Shown: positions 15,167 to 63,861 of the stretch, in pieces
Layout: every line of letters begins with the position of its first letter
Position numbering within the stretch: position 1 is the stretch's first letter
Source: a virus
DNA: 64,000 nt
IMG/VR virus record: IMGVR_UViG_3300028864_000019
Coordinates: 47,870 to 111,869 of that record
Reading direction: 5' to 3' (one strand)
The notes under the pieces: generated by a model
What the model saw: the letters and a program-made list of their open reading frames with translations, nothing else
What the model was told of the DNA's origin: nothing
Database searches by the model: none
Position numbers and translations under genes: made by a program

Positions 15167-16212
15167 ACTAAAAGAGTTCCATCTTCTAAACTACCACATG
15201 ATTTTTGATGACTTAAACAACATTGACTTATACCACTTCTATCACAATTATAAAACTCTGAGGCTTCTCCTATACTGTTAAATTCTTTATTAGTTGTAAT
15301 ACATTTTACTTTCTTTTTTCTTTTTATACTTTGTAATTCAAGTGCCTTTTCTTTTGAATTCGCTTCATATATTTTTAAGTTTATATCAGCTTGTGTCATT
15401 TTTATAAAATCACTATATCTCACCCAAATACAAGGTTTATTATTCAGCATTCCTGCATATCTTTGTTTATTATCACAACATTTTAATATTGTACCTATAC
15501 TTATATTTTTTATATCTTTTTCATTATTAATTATATCTGATGGTCTATCATATATAATTTTTGTTTCAATATTTACAATTCTTTTATCATTAATTGAACA
15601 TTCCAATTCATATATTTTATCTTTTATCTTTTCAATATCTTCATTAGTTAATTTAGAATATTCTGATTCGTATATAAAATACATTTTTATACCTTTACCT
15701 TGTACTATATAAGCATTATTCATTGCCTTATATATACTCTTATAACTAGTATTGTAATATATTTTTGCAGTCTCTATAAGTTCAAAATGCTTATTATCTA
15801 TCACATTAACTATTTGTTTTGCATTGGGATTTTTATTTCCATCAAATACTCCTTGTTTCAATTCTGACATTCTTTTTCTAGTTTCTTCATTTTGTACACC
15901 GTTATGTCCACCATCATCATTATTATAACCATATAATCTATTATTGCTCTTATATAATACTATGTAGGATTTTTCTTTAATATCTAATTCATCTTTACTA
16001 AAAGCATAATCAATAATATCTAATTTAAAATTATCTACTCCATATTTTTTAGCAGAATCCTTTAAATGCTTATTCTTTGAATATATCCACCATTCTCCTG
16101 CTGGATATCTCCTATTAAACTTATTTTTAGTTTGTCCAATATAAACTTTTTTATTAATTTGGTTTGTAATTCTATATATGATACCATATATTTTTAAATT
16201 ACCTATTTTCAT
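15151..16212 (-). CDS. GIY-YIG homing endonuclease with NUMOD repeats
   Basis: The GIY-YIG nuclease domain is at about residues 9-95: GIIYRITN (10-17), KVYIGQT (22-28) and the catalytic-Arg region NRRYP (33-37). Two NUMOD1-type DNA-binding repeats follow (about 138-170, IVNVIDNKHFELIETAKIYY; and about 300-345, VKCITTNKEFNSIGEASEFY, ending WEYC). The family makes site-specific double-strand breaks that spread its own gene. It is free-standing. Its leader (16213-16320) shares covarying stems with the leader of the unrelated endonuclease at 26869. Confidence 0.9.
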   Translation of the reverse strand: MKIGNLKIYGIIYRITNQINKKVYIGQTKNKFNRRYPAGEWWIYSKNKHLKDSAKKYGVDNFKLDIIDYAFSKDELDIKEKSYIVLYKSNNRLYGYNNDDGGHNGVQNEETRKRMSELKQGVFDGNKNPNAKQIVNVIDNKHFELIETAKIYYNTSYKSIYKAMNNAYIVQGKGIKMYFIYESEYSKLTNEDIEKIKDKIYELECSINDKRIVNIETKIIYDRPSDIINNEKDIKNISIGTILKCCDNKQRYAGMLNNKPCIWVRYSDFIKMTQADINLKIYEANSKEKALELQSIKRKKKVKCITTNKEFNSIGEASEFYNCDRSGISQCCLSHQKSCGSLEDGTLLVWEYC

Positions 16213-26756: not shown

Positions 26757-26868
26757 AAGGGATAGTTTAGTCTGATCAACTAAATGATAAAGGAGTATCA
26801 ATCGCCCTTCCCTACTATATTTAGGATTGATAACAAATTAAAATACATATTGAAAGGATTGATTGTTA
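26757..26868 (+). ncRNA. structured leader of the Vsr-like endonuclease gene
   Basis: Order: GGGATAG, stem TTTAGT/ACTAAA around loop CTGATCA (26766-26784), TCAATC...GATTGA stem (about 26798-26830) around CCCTTCCCT, then AAAGGA and the start. It is homologous in plan to 16213-16320. Confidence 0.6.
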
Positions 26869-28384: not shown

Positions 28385-29467
28385 TTAACTCCAAAAATCT
28401 GCATTCATCATATCTCGTAATTTTTGTTTTGTTGCAACTGGCTCTTCCTTGTTTGTATCTTTAGATGTGGTATTATTACTTTTATTTTTACTACCATTTT
28501 CTCTAAATTCAAATACTTTTTCTTCATCTTCTAATTCTTCGTCTTTCATATTATCATAAGCTTCTTGAAGAGTTTGTATATATTCATCTGGACTTGTTAC
28601 CCCACCAAGTACCATTAAATTCTTACTGCCATAATCGGTCTTTCCCCACATTTTAGCTTTAAATAATTCTTTCCATTCATCTTTATCATATATACCCTTT
28701 TCAAATATACCTCCCATATAAGAACAATCTAAATTATTAGGCATTACAAAAGGAGAATTATCCATACTATAATCTACTGCATCTACTAATGATTTGAATT
28801 TATCAGCCAATGGTAATATTACTTTATATTTGTTTGCTGAATTAATCATTTTAGTATCATTAATATCTACTGCCCCTTCTTGTAATTCATATGAATCTAA
28901 AATTAATTTCATACATAGTTTGTTAAATTCGTCTTCATTTTGCATTTTGTCATTGTCTATATATTGATAAGAATTGACTACCCCTTGAACTCTTAATTTT
29001 GTAATTTTTGAATGTAATTTAAGTGCATTTCCTATTGTTGTCTTTCCTTCTGACAATGCTGGCATAGCAACAACTAAATTAATTGCTAATTTTGAATTTA
29101 AATGCCTTAATACGTTAGTTAATGTTGTAAGTGAACCACCTCCAAATCCGCCACCACTAGCTAGATATATTGACGCAACATCATAATTATCTGTTTTATT
29201 AGCAAGGAAATTTATAAATTTACTTCTATCTTTTGATATGCTTTCTTGTGCTACATCTTGATTCCTTCCTGTACCACCACCATTTATTGCCAAGCCATTA
29301 ATAGTTGAATTATAGTGTTTTAATCTCTTCATTTCATTTATGTTAGAGTTCACAAATACACCATCGTATACCGATTGTAATACGTTTTCTGAATTATCTA
29401 ATAAATCCATGAAAGTATCTAATAGTTTATTACCTGTACCACCTGTCCCAATATTTAGTACGTTCAT
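28385..29467 (-). CDS. tubZ: TubZ-like tubulin/FtsZ GTPase (type III partition motor)
   Basis: The N-terminal strand and first glycine loop (MNVLNIGTGGTGNK) and the tubulin signature GGGFGGGS (residues 105-112, in LASGGGFGGGSLTTL) identify a tubulin/FtsZ GTPase of the TubZ/RepX branch. The PALSEGKTTIGNA segment fits the region after the signature. The 360-residue length fits TubZ. The last residues are a charged linker plus a short tail (KQKLRDMMNADFWS), where TubZ proteins bind TubR-DNA. It lies 3 nt after tubR. By family it polymerises with GTP and moves plasmid DNA by treadmilling. Confidence 0.88.
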   Translation of the reverse strand: MNVLNIGTGGTGNKLLDTFMDLLDNSENVLQSVYDGVFVNSNINEMKRLKHYNSTINGLAINGGGTGRNQDVAQESISKDRSKFINFLANKTDNYDVASIYLASGGGFGGGSLTTLTNVLRHLNSKLAINLVVAMPALSEGKTTIGNALKLHSKITKLRVQGVVNSYQYIDNDKMQNEDEFNKLCMKLILDSYELQEGAVDINDTKMINSANKYKVILPLADKFKSLVDAVDYSMDNSPFVMPNNLDCSYMGGIFEKGIYDKDEWKELFKAKMWGKTDYGSKNLMVLGGVTSPDEYIQTLQEAYDNMKDEELEDEEKVFEFRENGSKNKSNNTTSKDTNKEEPVATKQKLRDMMNADFWS

Positions 29468-43193: not shown

Positions 43194-44669
43194 ATGAGCA
43201 AAAAGAATAAGGATAATGATATAATTTTAAGTTTTGTCGGTGGAAGTAGGGACGATATTTGTGGATCTGCTTTATTAATTAGCTATCCTATAGGAAATGA
43301 CAAACATAAATGCGTTTGTCTAGAATGTGGCATGATACAAGGAGAATCAAAACCAGAGATAGAATATTCAATGAATAAAAAAATGGTTGAAAATATTCCA
43401 GTAGGAGGTATTTCGGGAGTGTTTTTAATGCACTCCCACGTCTGAGTAGACCATATTGGGAACACACCTATATTTGGACAAGATATATTCAAAGGTGAAA
43501 TAATTACAACAGAAGAATGTTTAATGATATCTAAAGAATTATTAAAAGATAGTGTGTATTTACATGATTGTTTAATAAAAGGTTTAAAAGCAAAAGGGAA
43601 AAGACCTAAAAACTTATATACTGAATTAGATATGTATAAGATGTTAGAGAAGGTAAAAACAGTTGAAACACATCAAGTATATAAATTTGATGATTGGTTA
43701 AGTTATGAATTTTATAATTCTGGACATGTATTAGGTGGTACTCAATTGAAACTTACTTTTAGACTACCTAACAATAATATAAAATCCTTAGTTTACACAA
43801 GCGATTTGGGATCAGATTACAATTTAAAATATAAACCATTTGTAAAGAAAAGAGATATAATTCCTAAGGCTTCAATGTACGTTTTTGAGGCAACTTATTC
43901 AAACTCTGAAAAGTGCTTTGATAAAAATTTAGTAGAAAAAGAAAGAAATGAACTAAAAGAAACTTTAACTAAATATTTAAAAAGTGGACACCGAGTATTT
44001 TTTCCTTCCTTTTCTTTCGGGCGTACCCAAGAGTTACAATTTTTAATAAATTCGTTTTTTAAAGATGAAGAATGGTTTAATGAAATACCAGTAACAATTG
44101 ATGGAAGATTAACTAATTCTATATGTGATACTTATAGCAAGATATTAAAATATGATGAATTTGAGGACTGGGAGAGAATAAAAAACTGGAAGAATTTTCG
44201 TTATAATAAAGAATATAAAGGTACTTTGGGAATATTATCTAAAAGAGAATGTGGAATTTACATAAGTTCTAGTGGATTTGTTCAACCTAAAACACGTAGT
44301 TGTGACTATGTTAAAAATTTTATGGGAGTTACAGGAGATCTAATTTGTTTCGTAGGATATTACGGAGCTGAAGGTTCAATTTCTCATGAATTAGTTACTA
44401 GACCAATAGGCACTCCTATTAAAATTGATGGAAGTACATTAATAAAAAGTTGTGATGTTCTTACTCAGAAAACATTTTCGAGCCACATTCAACAAGAAGA
44501 AATTTTTAGCTACTGGAGTCAAATAAACACAAATAAGATTCTAATACACCATTGTACTGAAGAAGGAAAAATTGAAATGAAAGAAAAGGGAACTGAATAT
44601 CTACAAAGTAAAAATAAAACAACTAAAATTGTAGGAGTAAGTAAATTTGCTTCACAATTCATTTTATAA
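43194..44669 (+). CDS. beta-CASP metallo-beta-lactamase RNase, interrupted by an in-frame TGA
   Basis: The two frames on either side of TGA 43443-43445 are in phase and form one 491-codon gene. The N-part ends at the metal-binding HxHxDH motif, which reads H80-S-H82-V-TGA-V-D-H. Removing six bases (for example CTGAGT) gives HSHVDHIGN exactly. The C-part has the beta-CASP landmarks: RVFFPSFSFGRTQELQFL, SSSGFVQP, GYYGAEGSISHEL and SSHIQQEE...ILIHHC. Intact relatives (RNase J/CPSF-type) cut or trim RNA. As written the enzyme is broken at its active site unless the stop is bypassed. No second ribosome binding site for the C-part is evident. Confidence 0.75.
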
Positions 44670-44671
44670 AC

Positions 44672-44686
44672 AAATTAATGTAGAAA
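44672..44686 (+). repeat. 15-bp element in a leader
   Basis: AAATTAATGTAGAAA is followed by AAGGAGAG and ATG 44703. Confidence 0.7.
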
Positions 44687-44702
44687 TAAGGAGAGAAATA
44701 GA

Positions 44703-44825
44703 ATGAAAAATTCAACTAAGCGTACATTATCAGGATTTAACTATCAGTCCTTAAATAATTTACAAAACCAACCAATTAAAATGTTAAATGAAAAGAAAAA
44801 GAATAACGAAAAGGTGGAGAAATAA
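44703..44825 (+). CDS. small basic hypothetical protein (40 aa)
   Basis: A 40-codon frame with AAGGAGAG 8 nt before the ATG. It is polar and basic (MKNSTKRTLSGFNYQSLNN...NEKKKNNEKVEK). The stop lies 2 nt before the next ATG, so the two genes are coupled. Function unknown. Confidence 0.5.
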   Translation: MKNSTKRTLSGFNYQSLNNLQNQPIKMLNEKKKNNEKVEK

Positions 44826-44827
44826 TT

Positions 44828-45019
44828 ATGAAAGAAACTAAAAATGTAAGTTTTTCAAAAGCAGTAATAACTGAGGAAGATGGAGAATTTAAGATTACAG
44901 AAGTTGGAAAAGATGATTCTAAAACATACAATCTAACAAATCAAATTAGAAAATGGATTGGAGAAGACGGACTAACTGTAACAATTAAAAAGGATAATGA
45001 TATACCATCTGAAGAATAA
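44828..45019 (+). CDS. small hypothetical protein (63 aa)
   Basis: A 63-residue protein (VSFSKAVITEEDGEFKITEVGKDDSKTYNLTNQIRKWIGEDGLTVTIKKD) with a small beta fold resembling YonK-type phage proteins. AAGGTGG lies upstream, inside the previous gene. YonK is a small SPbeta protein; the match is by eye and tentative. Confidence 0.55.
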   Translation: MKETKNVSFSKAVITEEDGEFKITEVGKDDSKTYNLTNQIRKWIGEDGLTVTIKKDNDIPSEE

Positions 45020-45698
45020 AATGTGAACAAAGGCATGTACTAGAAATAGACGTGACCTTTCATTAAAAGAACTGTTTTATAAGGAGTAAAAGAATAACGA
45101 TCCTTTCCCTAGTGGGGGAATAATAATACCATGATTTGCTTGGCTATTGGGTAATACATAGTCTGTTATTCAAAGATTATAAAGAACGAGGTATAGATTC
45201 CCAACAAATATTGAAGTGAGTTAGAAACTCAGACAAAGAAGAATTTTGCCCAAGTGGGAATAAGGAAATCAATACTAAAAATTTACTAATAACATACTAA
45301 ATACTACAAACAGTGAATTTTATTAGTTGGTAATATACTTACCTCATACTCAATACTTTAAGTTGAGAGAACGACAATGAAGTATTTGCCTTGTTACGGG
45401 TAAATATGGAGTCTTATTTAGAGTTTTAGGTAAACTTAGGTGTAACTAGAGATTTGATCTTGAAAAATAAAAACCTATGATACAAATACGCTTCACAATG
45501 TGCGACAAAAATACATTGTATTGATAGATGGAGGCATTCTAGCTGTACCATCGTGACTAATTGTTCATTCTAGAATGATTAGATATTGGGTTGGAATATA
45601 TCCACACAAATAATGAATTGAGTTATGATGGCTCTAACAAAAAAGATGTATTCCCTTTTGTGATATATGGGAGGTTAAATAATAATATCACATTACAC
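45020..45698 (+). other. 680-bp gene-free region before the tRNA
   Basis: No gene with a ribosome binding site. It holds small hairpins of the form CCC-NAGT-GGG (TTCCCTAGTGGGGGAA at about 45105-45120; GCCCAAGTGGG at about 45248-45258) and the palindrome CATTCTAGAATG (about 45573-45584). A non-coding RNA or remnants of further tRNAs are possible; none folds clearly by eye. Confidence 0.45.
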
Positions 45699-45788
45699 GG
45701 AGAGTTGGCAGAGTGTCCGAATGCACTGGTTTGCTAAATCAGCATACGTTTATTCGTATCGAGGGTTAGAATCCCTCACTCTCCTCCA
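45699..45788 (+). tRNA. tRNA-Ser (anticodon GCU)
   Basis: The acceptor stem GGAGAGT pairs with ACTCTCC (45778-45784). The anticodon arm CTGGT-TTGCTAA-ATCAG gives anticodon GCT (Ser, AGC/AGU). A long variable arm (CATACG-TTTATT-CGTATCG) confirms the serine type. The 3' CCA is encoded. Oddities: the T loop reads TTAGAAT rather than TTCGAAT and the discriminator base is T rather than the usual G. Confidence 0.9.
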
Positions 45789-46112
45789 AATAAAGCCTTC
45801 AACAGGATTAATGAATTACGATAGTTCTTTGTTAACTGGAAAAGCTTCCGATTATATGAAACTCGAAGTACAAGAGTTTTACCCTATGGGATTAGATGAA
45901 TAGAACATTACGGATAGGGATTAAATATTGTTCCAGATAAGTTTATTGTATAATATACCAATTTATATTATAAACTTAAATGTGCAATATGTAAATAGTA
46001 AAATGAATAGGAAATAAATTAAATATATGATAAAACTCATTGCATGTGATGTTATGAGCTTTTAATGTATTTAAAATTAATTAAAAATTAAAGAGTAAAG
46101 GGAAGATATGAG
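45789..46112 (+). other. 320-bp spacer after the tRNA
   Basis: No gene. A hairpin AAACTC...GAGTTT lies at about 45858-45880, and the terminator-like hairpin is at 46032-46064. An A/T-rich stretch follows. Confidence 0.4.
46032..46064 (+). terminator. terminator-like hairpin
   Basis: AAACTCAT, loop, ATGAGCTTTT. Confidence 0.5.
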
Positions 46113-46319
46113 ATGTTAAAAGAAGATGGAAGAATGAGTAATAAAGATAAAAAGAAACAACACAAAAAGTATAAAGATGTTAAATGTAAGAATTGCAAAA
46201 GTAATATAGATATTGATGAAAAAGTGTCTTTGCAGGATTTTGAAAAGATAGGCACAAATGAAGAATATATTTTTTATTGCAATAAATGTGGAGAAAGTAC
46301 AGATATTATAAAGCTTTAG
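46113..46319 (+). CDS. small zinc-ribbon protein (68 aa)
   Basis: Two CxxC pairs (CKNCKS near residue 26, CNKCGE near residue 57) form a zinc ribbon behind a basic N-terminus (NKDKKKQHKKYKD). ATG 46113 or ATG 46134 could start it. It probably binds nucleic acid; the family is unknown. Confidence 0.6.
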   Translation: MLKEDGRMSNKDKKKQHKKYKDVKCKNCKSNIDIDEKVSLQDFEKIGTNEEYIFYCNKCGESTDIIKL

Positions 46320-46362
46320 AAAACAAATTATGAAAGTAAAATAATAATGAGGGAGAATTATT

Positions 46363-47598
46363 ATGGAAGATGAAAGATATTTAAAATCGGAAATCGAGTC
46401 AAGAGAAAAATATATACATAGAATGTATTCTAACAAAACACAATTTAATATGATTAATAGAGAAATTGCAGAAGTAATTAATCAAGAACTTGGAACTGAC
46501 TTCCAAGAGAGTTATTTCCGTGGTATATATAAAATTTATGAAATTGCGTGTGCTGAATGTTTGGAATCTTTAAAAGGTGATAAAGCAGTAAAAAATAAAA
46601 TAGACGAAGTCACTGAATTGATTGGTGAGTTAGATGTTAAAAAGCAATTAATTCGTAATGATACTAATAAACTTAACAGAATAAAGAAAGACTTTATAAA
46701 GAATATTGAAATTGCAAATTACATAAATGAGTATATTGATAGAGAATGTGAAAACTTTCTACCTTTATCTTATAAAAGAATTGAAGATGAATCAGAAAAA
46801 ACACTAATTTGTTGCATTTCAGATTGGCATATAGGATACATTATTAAGGATTATAGAGGAAATAGTTATAATTATGAAATAGCTAAAAAGAGATTATCTA
46901 GATTCTTATCTGAAATAGAAAAAGAAATACATAAAAATGATATATCTAAAGTTATAGTAGTGCAAGCTGGAGATTTAACTGAAGGAATTTATATGCGTGG
47001 ACAAGATCAATCATATAGTTGTGAATTTAATAGTAATGAACAGATTGTTATGGCTGAGGAATTGCTATATGGATTTATTACAAGTATATCAGAAATGAAG
47101 GTAAATGTAGACTTATATTCAGTAGGTGGAAACCATCAGCGTGGAAACCAAGCTTATAAAGATGGAAATATTGAAGGAGATAACAACAATTATACCATAG
47201 TTAAGAATTTAAAGAAGTGGTTTACTTTAGCTAAGAATGATAGAGTCAACGTTTGTGATATTGATTTTAAAGAAGATTGTGGAGAGTTTGACTTAGGTTT
47301 TGGAGTTATAAAAGTTAAACATGGTGATAAAAGTCCTAAAGAAGATAAGAAATTCTATGACACAGAAACAAGTATGAATAATATAAAGTATGCTATGTTA
47401 ATAAGAGGACATTATCATAATTTTGGTGTAAGTTCACAAAATAATGGTGGGTACGTAACAACTATAGGTTCATTATTTGGTATGAATCCATATAGTGTGG
47501 ACAAACTTCAATGTACAACACATGCAAGTCAAACTCTAATTTTAGTTAACTATGATGGAGTTGAATATATAAGAGATATAAATTTACAAATCAATTAA
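46363..47598 (+). CDS. phage metallophosphoesterase (calcineurin-like)
   Basis: A helical N-terminal region (1-135) is followed by a complete metallophosphoesterase core: SDWHIGY (D-x-H), VVQAGDLTEG (GD), GGNHQRG (GNH), VKHGD and RGHYHNF (GHxH). All metal ligands are present. Such phage enzymes are often annotated as DNA repair or recombination exonucleases (SbcD-like), but the substrate is not shown. It precedes the ClpP-like gene and may be cotranscribed with it. Confidence 0.85.
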   Translation: MEDERYLKSEIESREKYIHRMYSNKTQFNMINREIAEVINQELGTDFQESYFRGIYKIYEIACAECLESLKGDKAVKNKIDEVTELIGELDVKKQLIRNDTNKLNRIKKDFIKNIEIANYINEYIDRECENFLPLSYKRIEDESEKTLICCISDWHIGYIIKDYRGNSYNYEIAKKRLSRFLSEIEKEIHKNDISKVIVVQAGDLTEGIYMRGQDQSYSCEFNSNEQIVMAEELLYGFITSISEMKVNVDLYSVGGNHQRGNQAYKDGNIEGDNNNYTIVKNLKKWFTLAKNDRVNVCDIDFKEDCGEFDLGFGVIKVKHGDKSPKEDKKFYDTETSMNNIKYAMLIRGHYHNFGVSSQNNGGYVTTIGSLFGMNPYSVDKLQCTTHASQTLILVNYDGVEYIRDINLQIN

Positions 47599-47628
47599 AA
47601 TAAAATAAAGGATTAATGGTGAAAAGTT

Positions 47629-48225
47629 ATGGGAGAAGTATATCAACAACGGAATTTATTGCTAGAAGAAATCAAATTAGTAGATTACAAAGATAATAAT
47701 ACACTATATATTGATGATGAAATTACAACTGAATTTATAATAATGTTATCAAGACAATTAAAGAAACTTGCCACTAAACAACTATCATTGAGCAAGGAAG
47801 ATAGAACACCAATAAAATTAATCATAGCTTCTCCAGGAGGAAGTTTAGTTGATGGAATGCATTTTTGTGACCTAATGGAATATTACATTAATAAAGGGAT
47901 AGAAATTCATACATATTGTACAAGCTATGCTTATTCAATGGCATTCAAAATATTTATATGTGGATCTAAAAGATTTGTATATAAGAGAAGTGATTTAATG
48001 TGACACCAATGGAATAGATTTAGATACGGTACTGAGACATATCAAGATACTGTAAATGATAGAGAGCAATGCGATAGATGGTACAAGTTAATAGTTGATT
48101 TAATAACTGAGAAAACAGGTATAACTAAAGAACAATTTGATAGCTATACAAAGAGTAATAAAGACTTTTATATGGATGGTGCTACTGCTTTAAAATTAAA
48201 TGTTGCTGATGAAATAATTATATAA
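47629..48225 (+). CDS. ClpP-like protease with an in-frame TGA next to the catalytic His
   Basis: The frames before and after TGA 48001-48003 are in phase and together make 198 codons, the usual ClpP length. The N-part has the ASPGGSLVDGMHFCDLM motif and the nucleophile region SYAYSMAF. KRFVYKRSDLM-TGA-HQW aligns with the usual 'RxAxxNSxIMxHQ', so TGA replaces exactly one residue just before the catalytic His. The C-part continues with the expected helices and YMDGATALKLNVADEI. Phage members act as head or regulatory proteases. As written the product is truncated before its His. TGA C is a leaky stop context. Confidence 0.75.
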
Positions 48226-48243
48226 AGGATATAGGTGAGAATT

Positions 48244-48585
48244 ATGTGTAAAGAAGAGTTAAATAAAGTTGAAGAAATAGAACCAAATCAGCCTATGGAA
48301 GAACAAGAATATTATAGTAAAGATGAAGTTTTAGATATTATAGAAGAAATAACACCTAGGATTGAAATCAATACTGATGAGTTAAATGGATTTGAATTAG
48401 ACGAAGATATATTTAAAAAAGGTTTGAAAGATATTAGTTTTGCTTGTGGGCAATTTATCGGATTAGTATCTGTAGGAGTAAATAATGCTGATGCTTTTCA
48501 ATATATTCTTAATGAAAGTACAGGTAGAATGAATTTAGAAGCCACAAAAATTAAACAAGATATTCAAGATGATAGTCAAGTATAA
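48244..48585 (+). CDS. hypothetical acidic protein (113 aa)
   Basis: ATG 48244 has AGGTGA at good spacing; a GTG at 48235 is an alternative. It is acidic and helical, with a central GLKDISFACGQFIGLVSVGVNNADAFQYIL. No family recognised. It follows the ClpP-like gene at 18 nt. Confidence 0.55.
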   Translation: MCKEELNKVEEIEPNQPMEEQEYYSKDEVLDIIEEITPRIEINTDELNGFELDEDIFKKGLKDISFACGQFIGLVSVGVNNADAFQYILNESTGRMNLEATKIKQDIQDDSQV

Positions 48586-48623
48586 AATAAATTAAATATT
48601 ATAAGTGAGGGAGATAATAAAAA

Positions 48624-49253
48624 ATGCAAGAATTAATTAAAGAAATGATACTAAATTCAGAAGAATCAGGTACAGTATTTATTGGTGATGGCATAGAAAT
48701 TGGTGAAACAGTTTTAGAATTAATGGAAGATGGAGTTCAATTCTGTGAAGCTGATTTTGATTATGTTGAAAATCTAATAGAAGAAAATGATATATTAGCA
48801 ATTGCTAAAAACATTTATGAAGATGGAGAAATAGAATATTTTATAGAAAAAGTCTTCAGTAAAGATGGAGAAACATTAGAAGATGATAGTGATATTGTTT
48901 TTATAGACTCCGATTTAGCTGATTGCATTGATATAAAGAAGTTTTCTGGAATGGTAATGTTAGTTGAATGTACATATGAAAATGATTCAGAAGAAGAATG
49001 TAATTATGACTGCGATAATTGTGAATATAGTGACGACGAAGATTACGAAAAAGAAATTGAAGAAGAAGATACAACAGAGATTTTATTTGAAGAACTTTTA
49101 TCAAGCATTGACGAACTGGATTTAGACAAATACTTAGTTGGAAATATCTATAATTTAATTAAAGATACAATTTCTGATGCTATTGAGATGGGCTACGAAG
49201 AAGGATTCGATGATTGTTTAAAGGACGTTAGAGAAAGTATTGATCATATTTAA
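48624..49253 (+). CDS. very acidic hypothetical protein (209 aa)
   Basis: It is strongly D/E-rich throughout, with a cysteine cluster in the middle (EECNYDCDNCEYSDDEDYEKEIEEED). The start (MILNSEESGTVFIGDGIEIGETVLELMEDG) resembles a small alpha/beta domain. The charge suggests a chaperone, scaffold or DNA mimic, but no family is recognised. Confidence 0.6.
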   Translation: MQELIKEMILNSEESGTVFIGDGIEIGETVLELMEDGVQFCEADFDYVENLIEENDILAIAKNIYEDGEIEYFIEKVFSKDGETLEDDSDIVFIDSDLADCIDIKKFSGMVMLVECTYENDSEEECNYDCDNCEYSDDEDYEKEIEEEDTTEILFEELLSSIDELDLDKYLVGNIYNLIKDTISDAIEMGYEEGFDDCLKDVRESIDHI

Positions 49254-49259
49254 GTTAAT

Positions 49260-49274
49260 AAATTAATATAAAAA
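49260..49274 (+). repeat. 15-bp-like element
   Basis: AAATTAATATAAAAA directly after the acidic gene. Confidence 0.6.
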
Positions 49275-49306
49275 GCAGTTAAAAGTAAAATTTTATGTCC
49301 TTATTA

Positions 49307-49338
49307 GGATTAGGTTGAAATATATCTAGTCCTTTTTA
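49307..49338 (+). terminator. rho-independent terminator
   Basis: AGGATTAG, loop, CTAGTCCT, then TTTTAT. Confidence 0.75.
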
Positions 49339-49409
49339 TATGTAATTTTAGTTATGCTTATCAAGATGGATAGGTAAATAAAGATTATATAAGAAGGAGT
49401 TTGATAAAA

Positions 49410-50015
49410 ATGAGTGAGATGAGAGTTTATCAAGACAAAATGTTAAATAGTAAAAAGGAAATTGTAGTATGTAATTGGGAACGAGGAGAAGGAAAAACTT
49501 ATTCTGTGTTTAGGAAGATCATAGAGAATAAGAACGGGAAGTATTTATATATTTCACCATTTTCAAGTAGAATACTACAAGATTATTTTAAAGAATACAC
49601 ATATAAAGAAAGTAATTCTATAAAATTATATAAATCATCTAGAGAAAGGGATTCTATAGAATTTAATGATGGTAACAAATTAGAAGTGTTTTATATTAAT
49701 CCTAATACTCAATTTAAAGCGTGTAGAAATATTGAAATTGCTTTCTTTGACGAATGTTATTTAAATAAAGAATATATTGATAGTATATTAAAACCTATGG
49801 ACGTTAAACAAATATATTGCATGATTACTAATGATAATATTGAATATATAGATAGTAGACAGTCTAAAATTACTCGTAGTAGTTTTTGTGATACTCAAAT
49901 AGAAGAATTAATGATTGAATACGCTGAAACACCTAAGAATAAAAATACAACGTTATCAAGGGAAAATATATTAAAGCAAATTAAAGTATTACAAGATATG
50001 AAGCAAGGTAATTAA
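49410..50015 (+). CDS. small P-loop ATPase (phage)
   Basis: ATG 49410 with AAGGAG; the upstream TTG overlaps that site. Walker A is ERGEGKTYS (about 24-32) and Walker B is IEIAFFDECYL (about 112-122). This arrangement (opening 'VYQDKML...', then a DEC/DEA box) is found in phage ATPases related to terminase or helicase cores. At 201 residues it lacks a nuclease or second helicase domain. Role unknown. Confidence 0.6.
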   Translation: MSEMRVYQDKMLNSKKEIVVCNWERGEGKTYSVFRKIIENKNGKYLYISPFSSRILQDYFKEYTYKESNSIKLYKSSRERDSIEFNDGNKLEVFYINPNTQFKACRNIEIAFFDECYLNKEYIDSILKPMDVKQIYCMITNDNIEYIDSRQSKITRSSFCDTQIEELMIEYAETPKNKNTTLSRENILKQIKVLQDMKQGN

Positions 50016-50039
50016 TAGATTATTATACTCTACGGGGTT

Positions 50040-50170
50040 GTCATGCTAAAGCATGATTTGTTGTGGCGTAATCAAAGATTACTTACAACATATAATTAAT
50101 TTAATATGGTTTTAAGGTGTCTAGATGAGTTGTTGTCTAGATGAGTTGTTGTCTAGTCTATTTTTAACGT
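50040..50170 (+). repeat. nested hairpins and an 18-bp tandem repeat
   Basis: CATGCT-AA-AGCATG, then TGTTGT-GTAATC-AAA-GATTAC-ACAACA, lie right after the ATPase gene. GTCTAGATGAGTTGTTGT then repeats twice in tandem, plus GTCTAG (about 50119-50160). Confidence 0.65.
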
Positions 50171-50225
50171 ATAATGCTTATTGTTTTTATGATATTTGCC
50201 TATTAGGTGGATAGCTAGAAATAAT

Positions 50226-50273
50226 AAATTAATGTAATAAAGTATTGTAAATTAGTATTCTATATGGTAAAAT
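50226..50273 (+). promoter_or_regulatory. promoter with 15-bp element
   Basis: AAATTAATGTAATAA (50226-50240), TTGTAA (50245-50250), 17 nt, TAAAAT (50268-50273). Confidence 0.75.
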
Positions 50274-50319
50274 TATCTTGTAGAATACCTAAAATAAATT
50301 ATATAGGAGGAATTTGAAT

Positions 50320-50610
50320 ATGGAAAAAGTTAATTACAAATATAGTCAATCTGAAATGGTAGCTTACTTACTTCTTAATGGTTATACATATAATAATATT
50401 GAGGTGAAAGAAAATAAAAGATATAAAAGTGATTACAAAGTATTTTTTTATATTGAAGGCTATAAAGAAGATTTGATTAAATTGGAACAAGATTTTAAAA
50501 ATAAAACTAATATATGTCTACAAGATTATATCAACAAATTATTACAGATAAAAAGGGTAATAGCTGACGCTATTAGAACTCAAAATAATATGAAGAACAA
50601 AGAAGAGTAA
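50320..50610 (+). CDS. DUF5659-like protein (96 aa)
   Basis: ATG 50320 with GGAGGA. Residues 8-58 (YSQSEMVAYLLLNGYTYNNIEVKENKRYKSDYKVFFYIEGY) match the DUF5659 pattern seen at 38687-38848; the C-terminal helix is longer. Function unknown. A terminator follows. Confidence 0.6.
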   Translation: MEKVNYKYSQSEMVAYLLLNGYTYNNIEVKENKRYKSDYKVFFYIEGYKEDLIKLEQDFKNKTNICLQDYINKLLQIKRVIADAIRTQNNMKNKEE

Positions 50611-50668
50611 GTTTGTAAAGTGCTGATACAACTAATGTTAAATAAATTAAATATGAGTATTAAGTATG

Positions 50669-50720
50669 AAAGACTGAACTACATGCAGTATTAACTGTTG
50701 TGATATTCAGTCTTTTGTTG
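50669..50720 (+). terminator. rho-independent terminator
   Basis: AAGACTGAA...TTCAGTCTT, then TTGTTG. Confidence 0.7.
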
Positions 50721-50748
50721 TGCGTAAAAATAAATTTAAGGAGGCATT

Positions 50749-51417
50749 ATGAAGATGCAAAACAATAATATAGGTGAATTAATAAGATATTTTATAATTG
50801 AAGAAGATAGTAAATTTTTAGAAATACAAGGTGGTAGTTTTATTCAGTCTGAAACTGGTGAATTTATAACAAAATCAGAGCATGACAAAATAATACAAAC
50901 TAAATTAGAAAAGTATAAAACAGAAATGTTTGCTACTGCTAATTATGTGTCTAATACTGAATTTGGCATAGAGAATGAACAAAGTTTAACTAAGAAGAAA
51001 GTTAAAAGGAAAAAGAGTGGTAAAGCAAGGGAGAATTTTGATAACGGTGAGTTCAATATAGTTTATAGGAATAAAATTGAGGGAGTGATGAATATGAAAT
51101 TAAATACAAATGAAAAGCTAGTATTTTATATAATGAGAGATTTCATTCAGTATCCTACTAATTGTATTGTAATTAATGATCATATTCCTACTATTAAAGA
51201 ACTAGAACCAATTATAGGATTAACTGAAAGAAGTATAATTACTGCTTTAAAATCTTTGGAAGATAAAAATATGTTAAAAAGAGTTCAATATGGTCATAAA
51301 AAAGCTATTTACATAAATCCAGAATATTATGCTTCAGGGAAAGAACTAGATTTAGATAGTTTGAAGTTATTTGGTTTAGTAAAAATTGATGATGAAAAAG
51401 TTAAAAGTTATTTATAG
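50749..51417 (+). CDS. RepL-like winged-helix protein
   Basis: The C-terminal half (about 110-222) is a winged helix in the pattern of Firmicute RepL replication proteins: NTNEKLVFYIMRDFIQYPTN, LEPIIGLTERSIITALKSLEDKNMLKRV, AIYINPEYYASGKELDLDSLKLFGL. The N-terminal half has a basic stretch (KKKVKRKKSGKARENF). GGAGG precedes ATG 50749. It could be a third replication-type protein or a regulator of phage replication. Confidence 0.7.
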   Translation: MKMQNNNIGELIRYFIIEEDSKFLEIQGGSFIQSETGEFITKSEHDKIIQTKLEKYKTEMFATANYVSNTEFGIENEQSLTKKKVKRKKSGKARENFDNGEFNIVYRNKIEGVMNMKLNTNEKLVFYIMRDFIQYPTNCIVINDHIPTIKELEPIIGLTERSIITALKSLEDKNMLKRVQYGHKKAIYINPEYYASGKELDLDSLKLFGLVKIDDEKVKSYL

Positions 51418-51474
51418 AAATAAATTATAAAATAATGAGCTATGTGATATTAGCAATTTAGGAGGAATTTGATT

Positions 51475-52830
51475 ATGGAAATAAGAAAATGTAAAAAATG
51501 TGGACAAGAAAAAGAATTAAACGAGGAAAATTTTTATAAAAACAAAAATGGAAGTTTTGAAAATACATGTAAAGCTTGTAGGAATAAAGCAAAAACAGAA
51601 CAAGAAATTAAATATAGAGAAAAGTTCTATGCTAAAGATGGATATAAAGTTTGCAAATGTTGTAATATTAAAAAAGAGGTATCAGAATTTGGATTATATG
51701 CTAAAGCTAAAGATGGATATTTGTCTAAGTGTTTAAATTGTTCTAATGAGAAAGATACATGGAGTCAAAGGGATAAAGATATTATTATAGCTAATTATAA
51801 TAAATTAATAATCAAAGAGATAATTCCATTGCTTAGCGTTAATCGTACTGAAAAATCTGTATTACATATGAGTAAAAAACTAGGATTATATAAAATAAAT
51901 AATGTAGTAGAAGATTATGACAAAATAAAATATAAAGACATTAAAGGCAAAAGATACAAATTATGCAAGTGCTGTAATGAATATTTACCATTAGAATTTT
52001 TATATTTTCCAAAAGATAATACTTGTAGTGATGGTTTTAGAAACGTATGCAAAAAATGTAAAGGTGAGAACTATGCAATATCTGATTCATACATATGGAA
52101 AGATGAAGAAGTAATAATTATTCAAAATAATTATTCAGATATGACCAATAATGAAATGAAGAATGAATTTTTCCCACATTTAACAATTAATCAAATTATG
52201 GATAAAGCTCATAGTTTAAATTTACATAAAAGTGATGAAAGTAAATTAAGAGCAACAAATGACGCACAAACTGAGGAATGGAGAAATAAAATAAGTGAGA
52301 CTCGACTTAAAAATGGAAAATCAAAAGGCGAAAATAATCCAATGTTTGGTTCTGCAAGATTTGGTAGTTTAAATCCTAATTATAAAGGTGGAATTAGTAA
52401 TATAGAAAATGAATTAAGAAGAAATATTAACCAATGGAAATTAGATAGTATGAAAGAATGCAATTTCAAATGTATTATTACAGGGGAAAGGTTTGATCAT
52501 ATTCATCACTTATATAGTTTTGATAATATAGTTAGAGATACTTTAGAAGAATTAAAATTACCTATATATGAAACTATAAGTAATTATACAGATATGGAAA
52601 TAAAACAAATTATATGTAAATGTACAGAAATTCATTACAGGTATCCATTAGGGAAATGTATGAAAGAAGAATATCATAAAATATTTCATCAAAATTATGG
52701 ATATGGAAGAAATACACATAGTCAGTTTGATGAGTTCTTAATTAGATTTTTTGAAGGAGCATTTGACGAACAGTTAGAAGAACAATATAGAAGTAATAAA
52801 ATATTAAAAAAATTAGAAGTTGCTAATTAA
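51475..52830 (+). CDS. HNH homing endonuclease with zinc ribbons and NUMOD3
   Basis: ATG 51475 with GGAGGA. Three CxxC...CxxC zinc units occupy about residues 5-40, 55-90 and 155-195 (CKKCGQ...CKAC; CKCCNI...CLNC; CKCCNE...CKKC). NUMOD3 follows (KGENNPMFGSARFGSLNPNYKGG, about 282-304). The HNH core is CIITGERFDHIHHLYSFDN (about 336-354) with a later H (HKIFHQNYG). This is a free-standing homing endonuclease. It sits two genes before the interrupted terminase, and such enzymes often target neighbouring conserved genes. Confidence 0.85.
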   Translation: MEIRKCKKCGQEKELNEENFYKNKNGSFENTCKACRNKAKTEQEIKYREKFYAKDGYKVCKCCNIKKEVSEFGLYAKAKDGYLSKCLNCSNEKDTWSQRDKDIIIANYNKLIIKEIIPLLSVNRTEKSVLHMSKKLGLYKINNVVEDYDKIKYKDIKGKRYKLCKCCNEYLPLEFLYFPKDNTCSDGFRNVCKKCKGENYAISDSYIWKDEEVIIIQNNYSDMTNNEMKNEFFPHLTINQIMDKAHSLNLHKSDESKLRATNDAQTEEWRNKISETRLKNGKSKGENNPMFGSARFGSLNPNYKGGISNIENELRRNINQWKLDSMKECNFKCIITGERFDHIHHLYSFDNIVRDTLEELKLPIYETISNYTDMEIKQIICKCTEIHYRYPLGKCMKEEYHKIFHQNYGYGRNTHSQFDEFLIRFFEGAFDEQLEEQYRSNKILKKLEVAN

Positions 52831-52877
52831 TTTTGGTGACTTTTTATTATGTAAAAAATTAAGTAGGTGAAAATATA

Positions 52878-54251
52878 ATGGCAGATTTTAAGACAAAAGA
52901 TTTAGATGAGCAGATGAAAGGGAAAACTAGATGTACTAAGTGTGGAACAATACTTAGTAATACAAATAATTTTTACACATCGAGTTCAAAATTACATACT
53001 TATACTGGAAGAGTATCTTTATGTAAAGATTGTTTAACTAATTTTTATGTATCACTTTTAGAAGAAACTAATGATATAAAAATATCAATATATAAAATAT
53101 GTGAGTTATTGGATTTTGTATATCTCGAAGGAATATACAATAGTTCATTAACAGAAGCAGGATGGAATAAAGATTTCACTATAGTACAAAATGGATTAGA
53201 AGTATGGAAAAAATACATAAAAACAATAAATTCTCTTAAAAATTATAAAGGTTATGCTTTTGAACATGGAGATAAAATTGATTTAGGAATGAGTATTGTT
53301 GAGGATGATACTACCAAAGAAAAAGAAAATAGCTTAATTATATCTAAGCCTAAAGAGTTTACTGACGAAGAAATTGAACAACGAGTAAGAGATAAACAAA
53401 ATAAAGAAGATATTATTAGAATAATCGGATATGATCCTTTTCAGAATGAAATAGAAGAAGATAAATCAAAAATGTATGCCAAGTTGATAAATATGCTAGA
53501 TGAAGATAGTCAAAATGATGAGCTTAAAAATAGTGCAATAATAAGTATTATAAAAGGTCAAAATCAAGAAAATAAAATAAATGATGTTATAACAAATTTA
53601 AGTTCTGATATAAAAAGTATAAAAGACAATATTGGAACTATTAAAAGCTTAACCGACACTAAAGAAAAACTAAATAAAAGTTTATTGGCTTTAGCGAAAG
53701 ACAATAAGATTAGTGATTTATATAGTGGTCATAAAACAATCGGTGCAAATACATTAACGGGCATGGTTAAAAAGTTAAAAGAAATAGATTTAAAAGAAGC
53801 ACAAGTTAATTTATTTGATATTCAGACTTCTAATGGTATGTTACAAACAGCAAGATTATCCGCAAAAGCAATTGTAGAAAATCTTAATTTTGGCGATGAT
53901 GATTTAATAGATATGGTAAAATTCCAAAACGAAAAAATAAATTTTTATGAACAAGAATACAGTAAATTAAGAGAAGAAAATAGAAAATTAAAGGCGATTT
54001 GCTCTTTCAATGATGTAGATTATAAACAAGATGTTTTAGAAACAGATTATTATGATGTTTTGGACTACGGAGACATAAAGGATGGACAAGACTCTATTCA
54101 AAAGCAGAATTATAAAGAAGACCAAATAAGTTTTAATAATATGGTTGAGGAAATAGTACCTATTGACACTATGGAGCATATTGATAAGGTTATTAAAAAT
54201 AAAAAAGAAATTGAAAAACAAAAAATATTGAATAGTGTTATAAGTGAATAA
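52878..54251 (+). CDS. zinc-finger protein upstream of terminase (possible small-terminase analogue)
   Basis: The N-terminal zinc finger is CTKCG...CKDC (about 18-48). A helical middle and a long coiled-coil region (about 210-385, with SDIKSIKDNIGTIKSL and NFYEQEYSKLREENRKLK) follow, then an acidic end. It lies directly upstream of the large terminase, where a DNA-recognising small subunit is expected, but no known small-terminase fold is recognisable. Confidence 0.45.
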   Translation: MADFKTKDLDEQMKGKTRCTKCGTILSNTNNFYTSSSKLHTYTGRVSLCKDCLTNFYVSLLEETNDIKISIYKICELLDFVYLEGIYNSSLTEAGWNKDFTIVQNGLEVWKKYIKTINSLKNYKGYAFEHGDKIDLGMSIVEDDTTKEKENSLIISKPKEFTDEEIEQRVRDKQNKEDIIRIIGYDPFQNEIEEDKSKMYAKLINMLDEDSQNDELKNSAIISIIKGQNQENKINDVITNLSSDIKSIKDNIGTIKSLTDTKEKLNKSLLALAKDNKISDLYSGHKTIGANTLTGMVKKLKEIDLKEAQVNLFDIQTSNGMLQTARLSAKAIVENLNFGDDDLIDMVKFQNEKINFYEQEYSKLREENRKLKAICSFNDVDYKQDVLETDYYDVLDYGDIKDGQDSIQKQNYKEDQISFNNMVEEIVPIDTMEHIDKVIKNKKEIEKQKILNSVISE

Positions 54252-54334
54252 GCGAAGCTTCAAAATTAGTGGGTATTAGTAGAGATAAATTAAGATTGTT
54301 ATTAAATGATAATAATAATAATAATAGTGAATAG
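54239..54334 (+). pseudogene. remnant helix-turn-helix fragment with AAT repeat
   Basis: In a different frame from the upstream gene, SEASKLVGISRDKLRLLLND followed by a run of N (AATAATAAT...) resembles the last helix-turn-helix of a NUMOD1-type or recombinase protein. There is no start site or ribosome binding site. It may be left over from a homing endonuclease gene. Confidence 0.4.
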
Positions 54335-54367
54335 GCATTTAAATAAAAAAATATGTTTCAATAACTG

Positions 54368-54394
54368 AAGGCATGGTAACATGTCTTTTGTTGC
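54368..54394 (+). terminator. rho-independent terminator
   Basis: AAGGCATG-GTAA-CATGTCTT, then TTGTTG. Confidence 0.75.
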
Positions 54395-54442
54395 GTTTAA
54401 GCAAACTTTATTGATATAAGAAGGAGGTGAATTAAATTCATT

Positions 54443-56337
54443 ATGGGTATCACAATTATAAATAAAGGTAATTTGACTCAAAAAAAGTTAGAAGGTTATT
54501 TAAAATACAATGAAATACTTGTATGGGGAAGAAGAAATCCTGTAAAGTTCGCAGAATTAGTGTTGGGACTTGAACTTATGGATTATCAAAAATATACATT
54601 TCAAGAATCATGGAGCAAACAATTTGCATTATGGTTGATGTCTCGTAATGGAGGCTGAGTAAATCAACTTTAAGTTCTCCATTTATAATGACAAAAATGA
54701 TGTTATTTCCAAACTTTCAAAGCTTTATACTTTCATTAACCGCAAGTCAAAGCCAAGATACCTTTCTTTGACAACTTAAAATGGAGTCAATAGCAAAAAA
54801 ACAAATAGAATCTTTTTGTGGATTAACAGATATATTTTTAGGAGAAGTTTCTGCAAGTGCTAACCATGATGGATTTGTTCACTCTCCTCAAGGATTTAGA
54901 TGTAAGCTATTTAACAACAGTCAAGTTACTACTGTTTCTGGGGAAGAAGATAATATTAGAGGGAAAAGATCAAATTTAAATTTGTATGATGAAAGTGGTT
55001 TCATAAGTGAAAACTATATTTCAGTTACAAAATCATTTTGTACACAGGATTCGTCGTTTAAGTTAGGTGGTGGTATAAACACCGAAACTATACCGATGAA
55101 TATTCCTAATCAATTATTGTTTTGTTCATCTGCTAGTAGTACGGATTCTGCATTTTATACATTATATAAAGAGTGGGCAAAGTTAATGTTTGCAGGAAGT
55201 AAAGACCATTTTGTAGCTGACTTAAATTGTGAGGTTATAATAGGAGCTACATTAAAAGGTAAAAAATTAAATATACCATTGTTATCACAATCTAAAGTTG
55301 ATGATGAAATAAGGTCAAACTCAGAGAAAGCAAATCGAGAATATTTTAATCGTTTTGATGCTGATGGTGGAAATAAACAACCTATAAAACGTGCAGTAAT
55401 TATGAAAAATTCATCAGTTAGAAAACCATTATTAATTAATGAAGGAAATATAAAAAGACACATTGCAATTTCATATGATCCAGCACATGATTATGATAAT
55501 TCAGCGACATCAGTAGGAGAATATATATATGATGAACAAGTTGGATGGAAATTAATAATTCAAAACTGTGTAAGTCTTGTGGATTTAGGGAAAAAGAAAA
55601 AAACTCCAATGAGAACGCCAGAACAAATTAAAGAGATAAAACAAATGCTAATAAATTATAACGGAAAAGGCAAGGCTGATTATGAGAATATAGATTGTTT
55701 ACTAGTTGATGCTGGTTCAGGAGGTGGTGGTCCGATAATCGCAGATTATTTTATGGACGACTGGGAAGATGAACAAGGAAATAAACATAGGGGATTAATT
55801 GATAAAGAAGCCTGTGCTGAACATGTAAATTCTTATCCGAATGCAGTAGGAAAATTAAAATTAGTATCACCTAAAAAATATAAAACAGAAATGTATGATG
55901 ATTTTGTAGAATTATTAAATTTAGGACTAATTGAATTTACAGATAATTATGATATGAAAGGGTACTTAAGTCTACCACAGGAAGGAAAAGAGATTGAAGA
56001 AATTGATGAGGATACGAATGAAAAGAAAAAGGTAAAATCAATAGATTATAAACAATACAATCTATCTTGGGACGAAGAATTGGCATTAAAGCAAATTGAT
56101 AACGCAAAAGAAGAATTAATTGCAATAAGAAGACAAGGTGATGATATAAATTATAAATATGAACTGCCTCCTGATAAAAAGAGTAAAATGCATGATGATA
56201 GAGCTTACACAATGGTAATGTTAGCTTGGCATTTAAAAAACCTTAGACGTGACGGAATAGTTAATAAGCAAGCACCACAAGTTGATTGGTCAACAGCACC
56301 AACATTTGTTTCATCAGTAAATTTCAATTCTATATAA
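54443..56337 (+). CDS. terL: terminase large subunit, interrupted at Walker A and at a second TGA
   Basis: Part 1 (54443-54655) ends ...LMSRNGG at TGA 54656. The next part is in another frame and begins KSTLSSPFIMTKMML. Taking out five bases (TGAGT or CTGAG) restores the Walker A SRNGGKST. It continues ILSLTASQSQDTFL to a second, in-frame TGA (54769-54771) and then KMESIAKKQIESF; taking out nine bases of CTTTGACAACTT gives TFLKMES. The long third part carries the ATPase motif LNLYDESGF and the nuclease acids HIAISYDPAH, CLLVDAGSG and DDRAYTMVML. Intact family members pump phage DNA into heads. As written the motor is broken twice. Confidence 0.8.
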
Positions 56338-62057: not shown

Positions 62058-62528
62058 TTGACGCCTTATTCAGAAGTAATAGATAGATTTGAACGTAAAA
62101 TAAAAGAATACAAAGATTTCTTTTGTTATGAAAATGTTACAGAAGAAGAATTTATAGAAATTACAAATAGAAGAGAAATGGGTTTATTAGAAGATGCAGT
62201 AAGTGACTTGCAATTAGTTGTTTCCATCTCTCAAAATGTAGATTTTTTAGATAAAAATGATGATTTAGAAACATTTAATTTTGAGTTAGTTCCATTGGAA
62301 AAGGATTTAATTAGTGATTGTATGGTTATTAAAATGTTTGATGAAGGAATAGTCAGGTTGAAAAAATATCAAGAATACTTTGGAGATGATATTAAAATGC
62401 CCAATTCTAATACAGAAAGGACTACCTATTTAAAAGTTGCTGAATATAGACAAATACAATTTGATAAAAAAGTTGTTAGCTATAACAGTAAGAATAGAAA
62501 AACTGGTGGTCATTTATTGGCATATTGA
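62058..62528 (+). CDS. head-tail connector-like hypothetical protein (156 aa)
   Basis: A TTG start with AAAGGA. The pattern YSEVIDRFERKIKEYKDFFCYENVTEEEFIEITNRREMGLLEDAVSDL resembles small phage head-completion or adaptor proteins (DNA packaging gp6-like). The stop is one nt before the next ATG. Moderate confidence in the gene, low in the role. Confidence 0.55.
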   Translation: MTPYSEVIDRFERKIKEYKDFFCYENVTEEEFIEITNRREMGLLEDAVSDLQLVVSISQNVDFLDKNDDLETFNFELVPLEKDLISDCMVIKMFDEGIVRLKKYQEYFGDDIKMPNSNTERTTYLKVAEYRQIQFDKKVVSYNSKNRKTGGHLLAY

Positions 62529-62529
62529 T

Positions 62530-63861
62530 ATGAATAAAGAAGATTTAAAATATTATAGAACTATAAACAAAGTTTCTAATAATCAAACAAGCAAAGAATC
62601 ACTCATTTCTGGAATTACACAAGACTATAATAACGCTAGAGAACATGCAATATATAGATTTGATGTATTAATAAATTCAATCGATGCAAAAGATGTATTT
62701 ATAAATAACTTAGAAGCTCCAATCAAAGGAGTAATTGACATATCAAGAAAACAAACTGCTGATACTGAAATGGAAGAAAAATTGCAAGTATATCCTAATC
62801 AGATTAAACGTGGAGACTATGTTAAATTCAAAGTCAATGAAACTGATACACTAAGAACTTATCTTATTAAATCCAAGATAGATAAAAAACATGGATATGA
62901 TGAAGGTATCTTTGAAGAGTGTAATTATGATTTGAAATTCATAGTTGATAACACTTTATATACTATTCCCACAATTGTGACGAATAATACGAAATATACA
63001 TTGGGAATAAAAAGTATTGGTGGAAGTTCAATAATTGAGGGAGATGGAATGTTTGGATTAGTACTCTCAAATAATGATATATCAAAACTGATAAAAATAG
63101 ATCAAAGATTCATAGTAAATGGTCAGGCTTGGAAAGCAACACAAACGGATAGGGTTACTACTAAAGGCGTATTAGCTGTATTACTTGGAGAAACAGCCAT
63201 AAATTATGAAATAGATGATATGGTTTTAGGTATAGCGGACTATAAAACTGTAATTCCACATACATATACATATAATGTCCCCACTACATTTGAAGTAACT
63301 AAGGGAACATCGGCAAATTTAGTATATTCTATTAAAGATGAATTAGGTTCTGAGATTGATTATAGTGGAGTTATGGTTACAAGTAATAGTCCCTTAGCAA
63401 CTATTACTAATACAAATGGAGTTATTTCAATAAGTGGAGTAAATATAGGTTTAGGTAGTATGAAACTACAAGTTACATTAGATAGAGTTTTAAAAGAATT
63501 TGATATTGCATTTGAAGTTAAAACAGATGTAATTGTTCCTGTAATATCATATTCGTGTGAATGGTCAACAGGAAAAGTATCTAATGGCGTTAGCTTGAAA
63601 ACTTATATGTCAAGTACTGCAAATTGCAAAGAAACCATTAATGGTGTCGCTGATTCAACATTGATAGTAAATTATTCATTAGATTCTATTGGAAGTTCTT
63701 TAGTAGCGACAGGGTCAGTAACAATCACTAGAAAATCTAATGTTGACTTCTTAGTTAAAAATGTTAGTGTAAGCACATCAAAAAGTTTCATAATAACATT
63801 TACTAATAGTGTAGATAATTCAATAATTTCTACTCAAACTGTTAGTCTTAGTGGCATGTAA
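62530..63861 (+). CDS. phage structural protein with Ig-like C-terminal domains
   Basis: ATG 62530, one nt after the previous stop; an upstream TTG at 62437 lies inside that gene and is rejected. The N-terminal half (about 1-240) resembles neck or stopper proteins that bind the tail (YPNQIKRGDYVKFKVNETDTLRTYLIKSKID...FIVNGQAWKATQTDRV). The C-terminal half (about 250-443) is two beta-sandwich units with many V, T and S (FEVTKGTSANLVYSI...), like bacterial Ig-like domains used for surface display. Confidence 0.65.
   Translation: MNKEDLKYYRTINKVSNNQTSKESLISGITQDYNNAREHAIYRFDVLINSIDAKDVFINNLEAPIKGVIDISRKQTADTEMEEKLQVYPNQIKRGDYVKFKVNETDTLRTYLIKSKIDKKHGYDEGIFEECNYDLKFIVDNTLYTIPTIVTNNTKYTLGIKSIGGSSIIEGDGMFGLVLSNNDISKLIKIDQRFIVNGQAWKATQTDRVTTKGVLAVLLGETAINYEIDDMVLGIADYKTVIPHTYTYNVPTTFEVTKGTSANLVYSIKDELGSEIDYSGVMVTSNSPLATITNTNGVISISGVNIGLGSMKLQVTLDRVLKEFDIAFEVKTDVIVPVISYSCEWSTGKVSNGVSLKTYMSSTANCKETINGVADSTLIVNYSLDSIGSSLVATGSVTITRKSNVDFLVKNVSVSTSKSFIITFTNSVDNSIISTQTVSLSGM

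Follow-up and report, generated by a model that had tools for sequence, protein, structure and literature searches.

Stop-first inserts in the terminase genes of a phage family and in a phage beta-CASP gene as probable sites of short programmed translational bypassing

The window analysed here is a 64,000-nucleotide (nt) stretch of virus DNA (IMG/VR record IMGVR_UViG_3300028864_000019, positions 47,870 to 111,869), which forms the final 64 kb of a record 111,869 bases long. Two of its genes, encoding a beta-CASP metallo-RNase-like protein and the large terminase subunit (TerL), are broken by three short stop-containing inserts (beta-CASP, 43443-43448; TerL, 54656-54660 and 54769-54777). Sequence comparison with relatives indicated that these inserts are probably short programmed translational bypass sites, or stop-hops, and suggested that the same device arose many times in the TerL genes of this phage family. 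An earlier note, made from the window sequence alone, had listed three explanations: repair scars, programmed bypass or readthrough, and alteration of the record. The comparative evidence favours bypass. All four breaks described in that note (in the HxHxDH motif of beta-CASP, in the catalytic motif of a ClpP-like gene, in the Walker A motif of TerL and just behind it) are present exactly where it placed them; the ClpP break turned out to be of a different kind.

The beta-CASP gene (43194-44669, plus strand) was identified by a Pfam Beta-Casp match in its downstream part, and its product, with the stop read through, matched YSH1, INTS11 and TTHA0252 in the PDB. The insert TGAGTA (43443-43448) adds six bases to the HxHxDH motif, between HSHV and DH (GTC TGA GTA GAC). 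The putative hop site (43440-43448, plus strand) thus consists of the take-off codon GTC (43440-43442), the stop codon TGA (43443-43445) and the landing triplet GTA (43446-43448). The same six bases are found in the relative L026, whose gene is 91% identical over its whole length without gaps, while neither the insert nor a similar break was found in 13 more distant beta-CASP relatives. Between the window and L026, both carrying the insert, the ratio of nonsynonymous to synonymous substitution rates (dN/dS) was 0.048 at a dS of 0.54; by part, it was 0.088 before the stop and 0.043 after it. A stretch of 26 codons identical between the two phages, the longest in the gene, spans the hop site (P = 0.003), as expected of a recoding signal. 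From the insert to the next ATG, 25 codons contain one amino acid change. Reinitiation at this ATG is unlikely because these codons are conserved, and internal starts in general were judged unlikely from the sequence, with no in-frame ATG, GTG or TTG close behind most breaks.

The TerL gene (54443-56337, plus strand) was found by alignment with relatives to contain two interruptions; one intact relative, L083, matched phrog_2 "terminase large subunit" (E = 2e-20). Hop site a (54653-54660, plus strand) lies in Walker A (RNGG|KST), with the take-off codon GGC (54653-54655), the 5-nt insert TGAGT (54656-54660) and the landing triplet AGT. Hop site b (54766-54777, plus strand) lies behind Walker A (QDTFL|KME), with the take-off codon CTT (54766-54768), the 9-nt insert TGACAACTT (54769-54777) and the landing triplet CTT. 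Both inserts are absent from the relatives L010 and L013, which carry inserts of their own at other sites (GAA TGAG TTA in L010; CGA ACGA AAT in L013). The small direct repeats that had been noticed at the insert ends are more aptly read as pairs of take-off and landing codons (GTC..GTA, CTT..CTT and GGC..AGT).

The regions over all four breaks are 100% identical in assemblies of at least six other metagenomes (L005-L009, L012, L023-L025), and the breaks are therefore biological. Four damaging changes at catalytic motifs of one record had looked suspicious. An error of sequencing or assembly, or alteration of the record, can nevertheless be practically dismissed: besides the identical independent assemblies, the beta-CASP insert is common to the 91%-identical L026, and other lineages have different inserts, one of them in L074, whose record identifier is of the isolate type. 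The view of the earlier note that random error and decay do not account for the breaks is borne out by these assemblies and by the purifying selection on the genes, whereas its option of record alteration is excluded.

About 80 distinct TerL genes were collected by a profile search, and inserts were called by frame-aware comparison. This revealed 15 independent short inserts of 2, 4, 5, 6, 9, 12 or 15 nt in 14 lineages at seven places, which together with the beta-CASP insert makes 16. The inserts lie after WGR (L069; L070/L072/L137/L109; L074; L075/L076; L071; G003), after GI[ED] (G002, L020, L085), after GIEFL (L067/L068, L119), in Walker A (window), after APFV (L058), after DTFL (window) and after DESGF (L056). 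On the TerL tree, at least 11 changes of insert state were counted, with L011 treated as intact. Interrupted and intact genes are often close sisters (L071/L021, L075/L083, L020/L125, L119/L093), and in the TerL clade of the window every distinct lineage has an insert, all of them different. No clear hop-type break was found in some 20 control families drawn from these phages (more than 150,000 aligned amino acids), where only one nonsense substitution and one +4 change at a gene start were flagged. In the wider family the breaks are almost entirely limited to TerL.

The inserts follow common rules. In 15 of the 16 a stop codon stands in the zero frame immediately after the last homologous codon, and in all 16 the last triplet of the codon plus insert fits the take-off codon at position 2 and the wobble position 3. 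Landing and take-off triplets are strictly synonymous in 10 of 16 cases. When take-off codons were shuffled among the inserts, the observed fit was never reached in 100,000 trials (P < 1e-5), and only about 4 of 14 random stop-first inserts fit the landing rule, compared with 14 of 14 observed. The type of stop follows the take-off codon in all seven independent stop-first inserts of 4 nt (TAG after CGN, TGA after GAN), and the fitting landing triplet is therefore in place. One rule holds for insert lengths in all three frames (2, 4, 5, 6, 9, 12 and 15 nt).

Protein homology picks up exactly on both sides of the inserts, and both sides are under purifying selection. For the TerL genes of L070 and L109, which share the site CGA TAGC, dN/dS was 0.29 before the insert, 0.07 from there to Walker A and 0.13 behind it, at a dS of 0.4-0.6. 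Pseudogene decay was ruled out by dN/dS values of 0.05-0.29 together with the almost exclusive occurrence of hop-type breaks: among the roughly 80 TerL genes, no inactivating indel of another type was seen except in L011.

Small predicted hairpins often surround or adjoin the take-off codon. The mean fold z-score was -1.0 at insert sites and -0.2 in intact homologs (p = 0.004) in a window of ±30 nt, with a weaker difference in other windows. A predicted take-off stem-loop is clear at beta-CASP, at TerL sites a and b, and in L071 (CGCTAG-GTTAA-CTAGCG), L074 and L075, and is absent at the other sites. At beta-CASP, a 5' stem-loop GGGAGTGT..TGCACTCCC (43415-43437, plus strand), identical in L026, is predicted just 5' of the take-off codon, and a small hairpin, GTCT-GAGT-AGAC (43440-43451, plus strand), at the site itself. 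A hairpin AATGGAG..CTCCATT (54647-54683, plus strand) is predicted around site a with a z-score of -2.27; rescoring gave -2.4 to -3.1 in three of four windows and -1.3 in the remaining one. At site b, the take-off codon and the stop lie in the 3' arm of a predicted hairpin GTCAAAG..CTTTGAC (54746-54772, plus strand). Downstream RNA structure taken alone (78 nt after the stop) showed nothing unusual.

The pattern as a whole suggests short bypassing as the simplest single account. A ribosome on a sense codon would meet a stop at once downstream and stall there; the peptidyl-tRNA would then release the take-off codon, move forward by 2-15 nt and re-pair with a triplet matching the anticodon at its second and third positions, and usually at all three. 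Decoding would restart in whichever frame follows the landing triplet, and full-length terminase or RNase would result, without residues encoded by the insert. The ribosomal hop, its efficiency and its stimulators are what we infer from these sequences; local hairpins and the upstream peptide are candidate stimulators.

Several observations weigh against this account. In six of the 16 cases only two bases of the landing triplet would pair (CGN to AGN, CTT to ATT, GGC to AGT); these triplets always begin with A. G003 has a 4-nt insert that is simply a tandem duplication, and no stop follows at once. Synonymous constraint at the TerL site shared by L070 and L109 is weak (P = 0.12), whereas it is significant at beta-CASP. 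Hairpin support is modest and uneven between sites, and the ClpP break lies outside the hop rule. In L011 (7844-7870), the 4-nt insert of L010 is followed about 25 nt downstream by a 4-nt deletion, and a hop would misread the gene. Finally, synthetic stop-hops are reportedly inefficient in E. coli, so an extra stimulator would be needed here. The deletion in L011 restores the original frame; it may reflect misassembly or a second-site change.

Ordinary recoding at each site, by +1 frameshifting at 4-nt inserts, +2 or -1 frameshifting at 2- and 5-nt inserts and readthrough at 6- to 15-nt inserts, with extra residues left in the protein, was considered rather unlikely. All such events are known in bacteria, a +1 shift at the 4-nt inserts would leave a single extra residue (E, D, R or S), and the stops of ClpP and TerL site b have the UGA-C context. 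However, three mechanisms would then be needed for one pattern, readthrough in beta-CASP would insert two residues into HxHxDH, and neither the landing match in 16 of 16 inserts nor the codon-dependent stop type would be explained. It is highly improbable that the inserts are excised from the mRNA before translation, as tiny introns or by RNA processing. Some of them do lie in hairpin loops or arms, and group I-like introns occur in the same gene of relatives, but to our knowledge no enzyme excises 2-15 nt from bacterial mRNA, and excision would require neither an in-frame stop nor a codon-anticodon fit.

Scars of DNA breaks, left by end repair after homing endonucleases (or excised elements) had cut conserved sites, with the genes now dead or complemented in trans, were likewise judged quite improbable as a full explanation. 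TerL is often hit by selfish DNA (inteins, group I introns and HNH genes 5' of it), inserts lie near two intein or intron sites, and some inserts resemble small duplications. Against this, genes that share an insert are under purifying selection on both sides of it, L011 has the sole non-hop inactivating indel among about 80 TerL genes, the stop stands at the junction in 15 of 16 inserts, and take-off codon and landing triplet fit each other in every case. The repair-scar option of the earlier note thus keeps a place as a possible origin of the inserts, which may derive from repair after endonuclease cutting, while their stop-first form, landing fit and purifying selection remain unexplained by it. 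Nor was a clear link seen between HNH genes and inserts: an HNH gene lies 5' of terL in about 6 of 12 interrupted and about 10 of 28 uninterrupted lineages.

The HNH gene of the window (51469-52830, plus strand), 5' of terL, encodes a free-standing HNH/endonuclease VII-like putative homing endonuclease (phrog_1035, phrog_2255; weak NUMOD3), and its relatives occupy the same position in many loci. The HNH gene that precedes an intact terminase in L079 (position 3477) carries a -1 frameshift and looks as though it were decaying. Among the three homing endonuclease genes claimed earlier, the HNH gene of the window and a GIY-YIG gene (15151-16212) are supported; the third candidate (26863-28278) has only a weak I-HmuI-like tail match (E = 0.022). 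Besides the insert distribution described above, introns and inteins were found in the TerL genes of relatives, some close to insert sites. Inteins, some mini and some large, interrupt Walker A at GGK|S/T in L057, L062, L072, L077, L098, L105, L107, L109 and L156, and several end in ...THN|S. Group I-like introns lie at KR|SNL and YDP|AHD, and L158 has a further intron near YD|ESGF. The TerL gene of L013 has two intron-like insertions (10197-10454 and 10966-11282; about 264 and 317 bp), one with a group I core-like sequence. A single codon separates the Walker A insert of the window from the intein site, and the L056 insert is four to five codons away from an intron site.

Inserts may protect a gene from a homing nuclease. 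This idea is attractive because of the inserts near intein and intron sites and the T4 mobA precedent (PMC5009743), but the HNH gene 5' of terL showed no clear enrichment beside interrupted genes. A fuller reading, which we regard as less likely than not, would join these points: natural stop-hops of 2-15 nt that evolve recurrently in the terminase of this phage family, land on two-of-three pairing, are frequently gained and lost, and perhaps serve as immunity marks that alter the targets of homing or defence nucleases while the enzyme is kept.

The ClpP-like gene (47629-48225, plus strand; head maturation protease type) was assigned by matches to Pfam CLP_protease, phrog_94 and ClpP in the PDB. 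Its in-frame TGA (48001-48003, plus strand) immediately precedes the catalytic His and replaces TGC (Cys) of the 91%-identical L026. The break is therefore a substitution and not an insert, and it does not obey the hop rule. The dN/dS against L026 was 0.084. Alignment of the UGA with a Cys codon of a homolog is a trait of selenoproteins; a check for a selenocysteine insertion sequence (SECIS) found a hairpin about 24 nt 3' of the TGA that was not unusual for its composition (z = -0.57). This TGA is a separate event, which represents either UGA readthrough, selenocysteine or a true nonsense change.

Two general explanations for the internal stops were rejected. A reassigned code with TGA as a sense codon does not fit, since TGA terminates 12 of 112 long open reading frames of the record and TAG and TAA serve just as well in the inserts of relatives. 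The only phage tRNA, tRNA-Ser(GCU), was dismissed as a suppressor; it occurs only in the window phage and G002. In the window it is encoded in a non-coding stretch of about 1 kb (45020-46110), which also contains a drum RNA match (45372-45481) below threshold (40.2 versus 43 bits). In the relative G003, a skipping-rope RNA (L013:734-812) lies 5' of the same downstream gene as this stretch. Two in-frame nonsense substitutions similar to that of ClpP were also observed in G003, one in a CYTH-domain gene (L027 8360; TGA versus Arg in the window relative) and one, TAT to TAA, in the homolog of window 62437-63861 (L030 3187).

The phage may be maintained like a plasmid, because it carries genes for a tubulin/FtsZ-family protein (28385-29467, minus strand) and, nearby, for a Rep3 initiator and an FtsK-type ATPase. 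BLASTN of the beta-CASP to ClpP region against named phages and megablast of positions 40000-64000 against plasmids returned no informative relative. About 1,290 Bacillota genomes contained few TerL homologs, and those inspected were intact.

The case for bypassing has so far come from a single phage gene (T4 gene 60) and from yeast mitochondria (PMC5009743). If the proposed hops are real, 16 independent sites with varied codons, frames and lengths would make a family out of one curiosity, and the rules of hopping (stop identity, pairing at positions 2 and 3, hairpins and upstream peptide) could be deduced from natural examples and then tested. Internal stops would also have led to the misannotation of essential phage genes as broken. 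The pattern raises the question of why terminase was singled out.

In RF2 (prfB), the P-site tRNA shifts by one base onto an overlapping codon at an A-site stop. The proposed hops are similar in that an A-site stop would trigger re-pairing of the P-site tRNA, and TerL site b has CTT TGA C; however, landing here is mostly on non-overlapping triplets and in all frames. The terminases of Streptomyces phage Hau3 and prophage StrepC.1 are also suspected of bypassing, just after an encoded WG (PMC5009743). The gene is alike, and so is the WG just before the site (KGWG in Hau3, QWGR|stop at the WGR site of this family), but the Hau3 site has a UUA codon instead of a stop, is itself unproven and showed no sequence relation to this family among the searches made. 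The mitochondrial byps of Magnusiomyces capitatus are multiple short non-coding inserts bypassed between imperfect, two-of-three take-off and landing pairs (PMC5009743). Multiple short inserts and imperfect codon pairs are shared features; byps hit most mitochondrial genes and an A-site stop is not their rule, whereas the present inserts are nearly all in one late gene, stop-first and much shorter.

Synthetic stop-hops, in which a stop is flanked by matched codons, function in E. coli (Weiss et al. 1987, cited in PMC5009743) and are near-identical in design, including hops such as +2, +5 and +6. Those were laboratory constructs, while the present sites are natural, conserved and under selection. 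A 2016 review stated that a natural in-frame stop-hop was not then known and expected shorter natural counterparts (PMC5009743); the later papers found in an open-access search report no comparable stop-hop family. The 50-nt bypass of T4 gene 60, from GGA to GGA, has a stop right after the take-off codon, a matched landing codon and hairpins near take-off (PMC5009743), and is linked to the homing endonuclease MobA (PMC5009743, PMC3014915). The sites described here resemble it in the first two features, in belonging to phage genes and, at some sites, in predicted hairpins near take-off, but they differ in that the gaps are 2-15 nt instead of 50 nt, one-third of the landings are two-base matches only, and the inserts occupy many positions in many lineages of one gene family.

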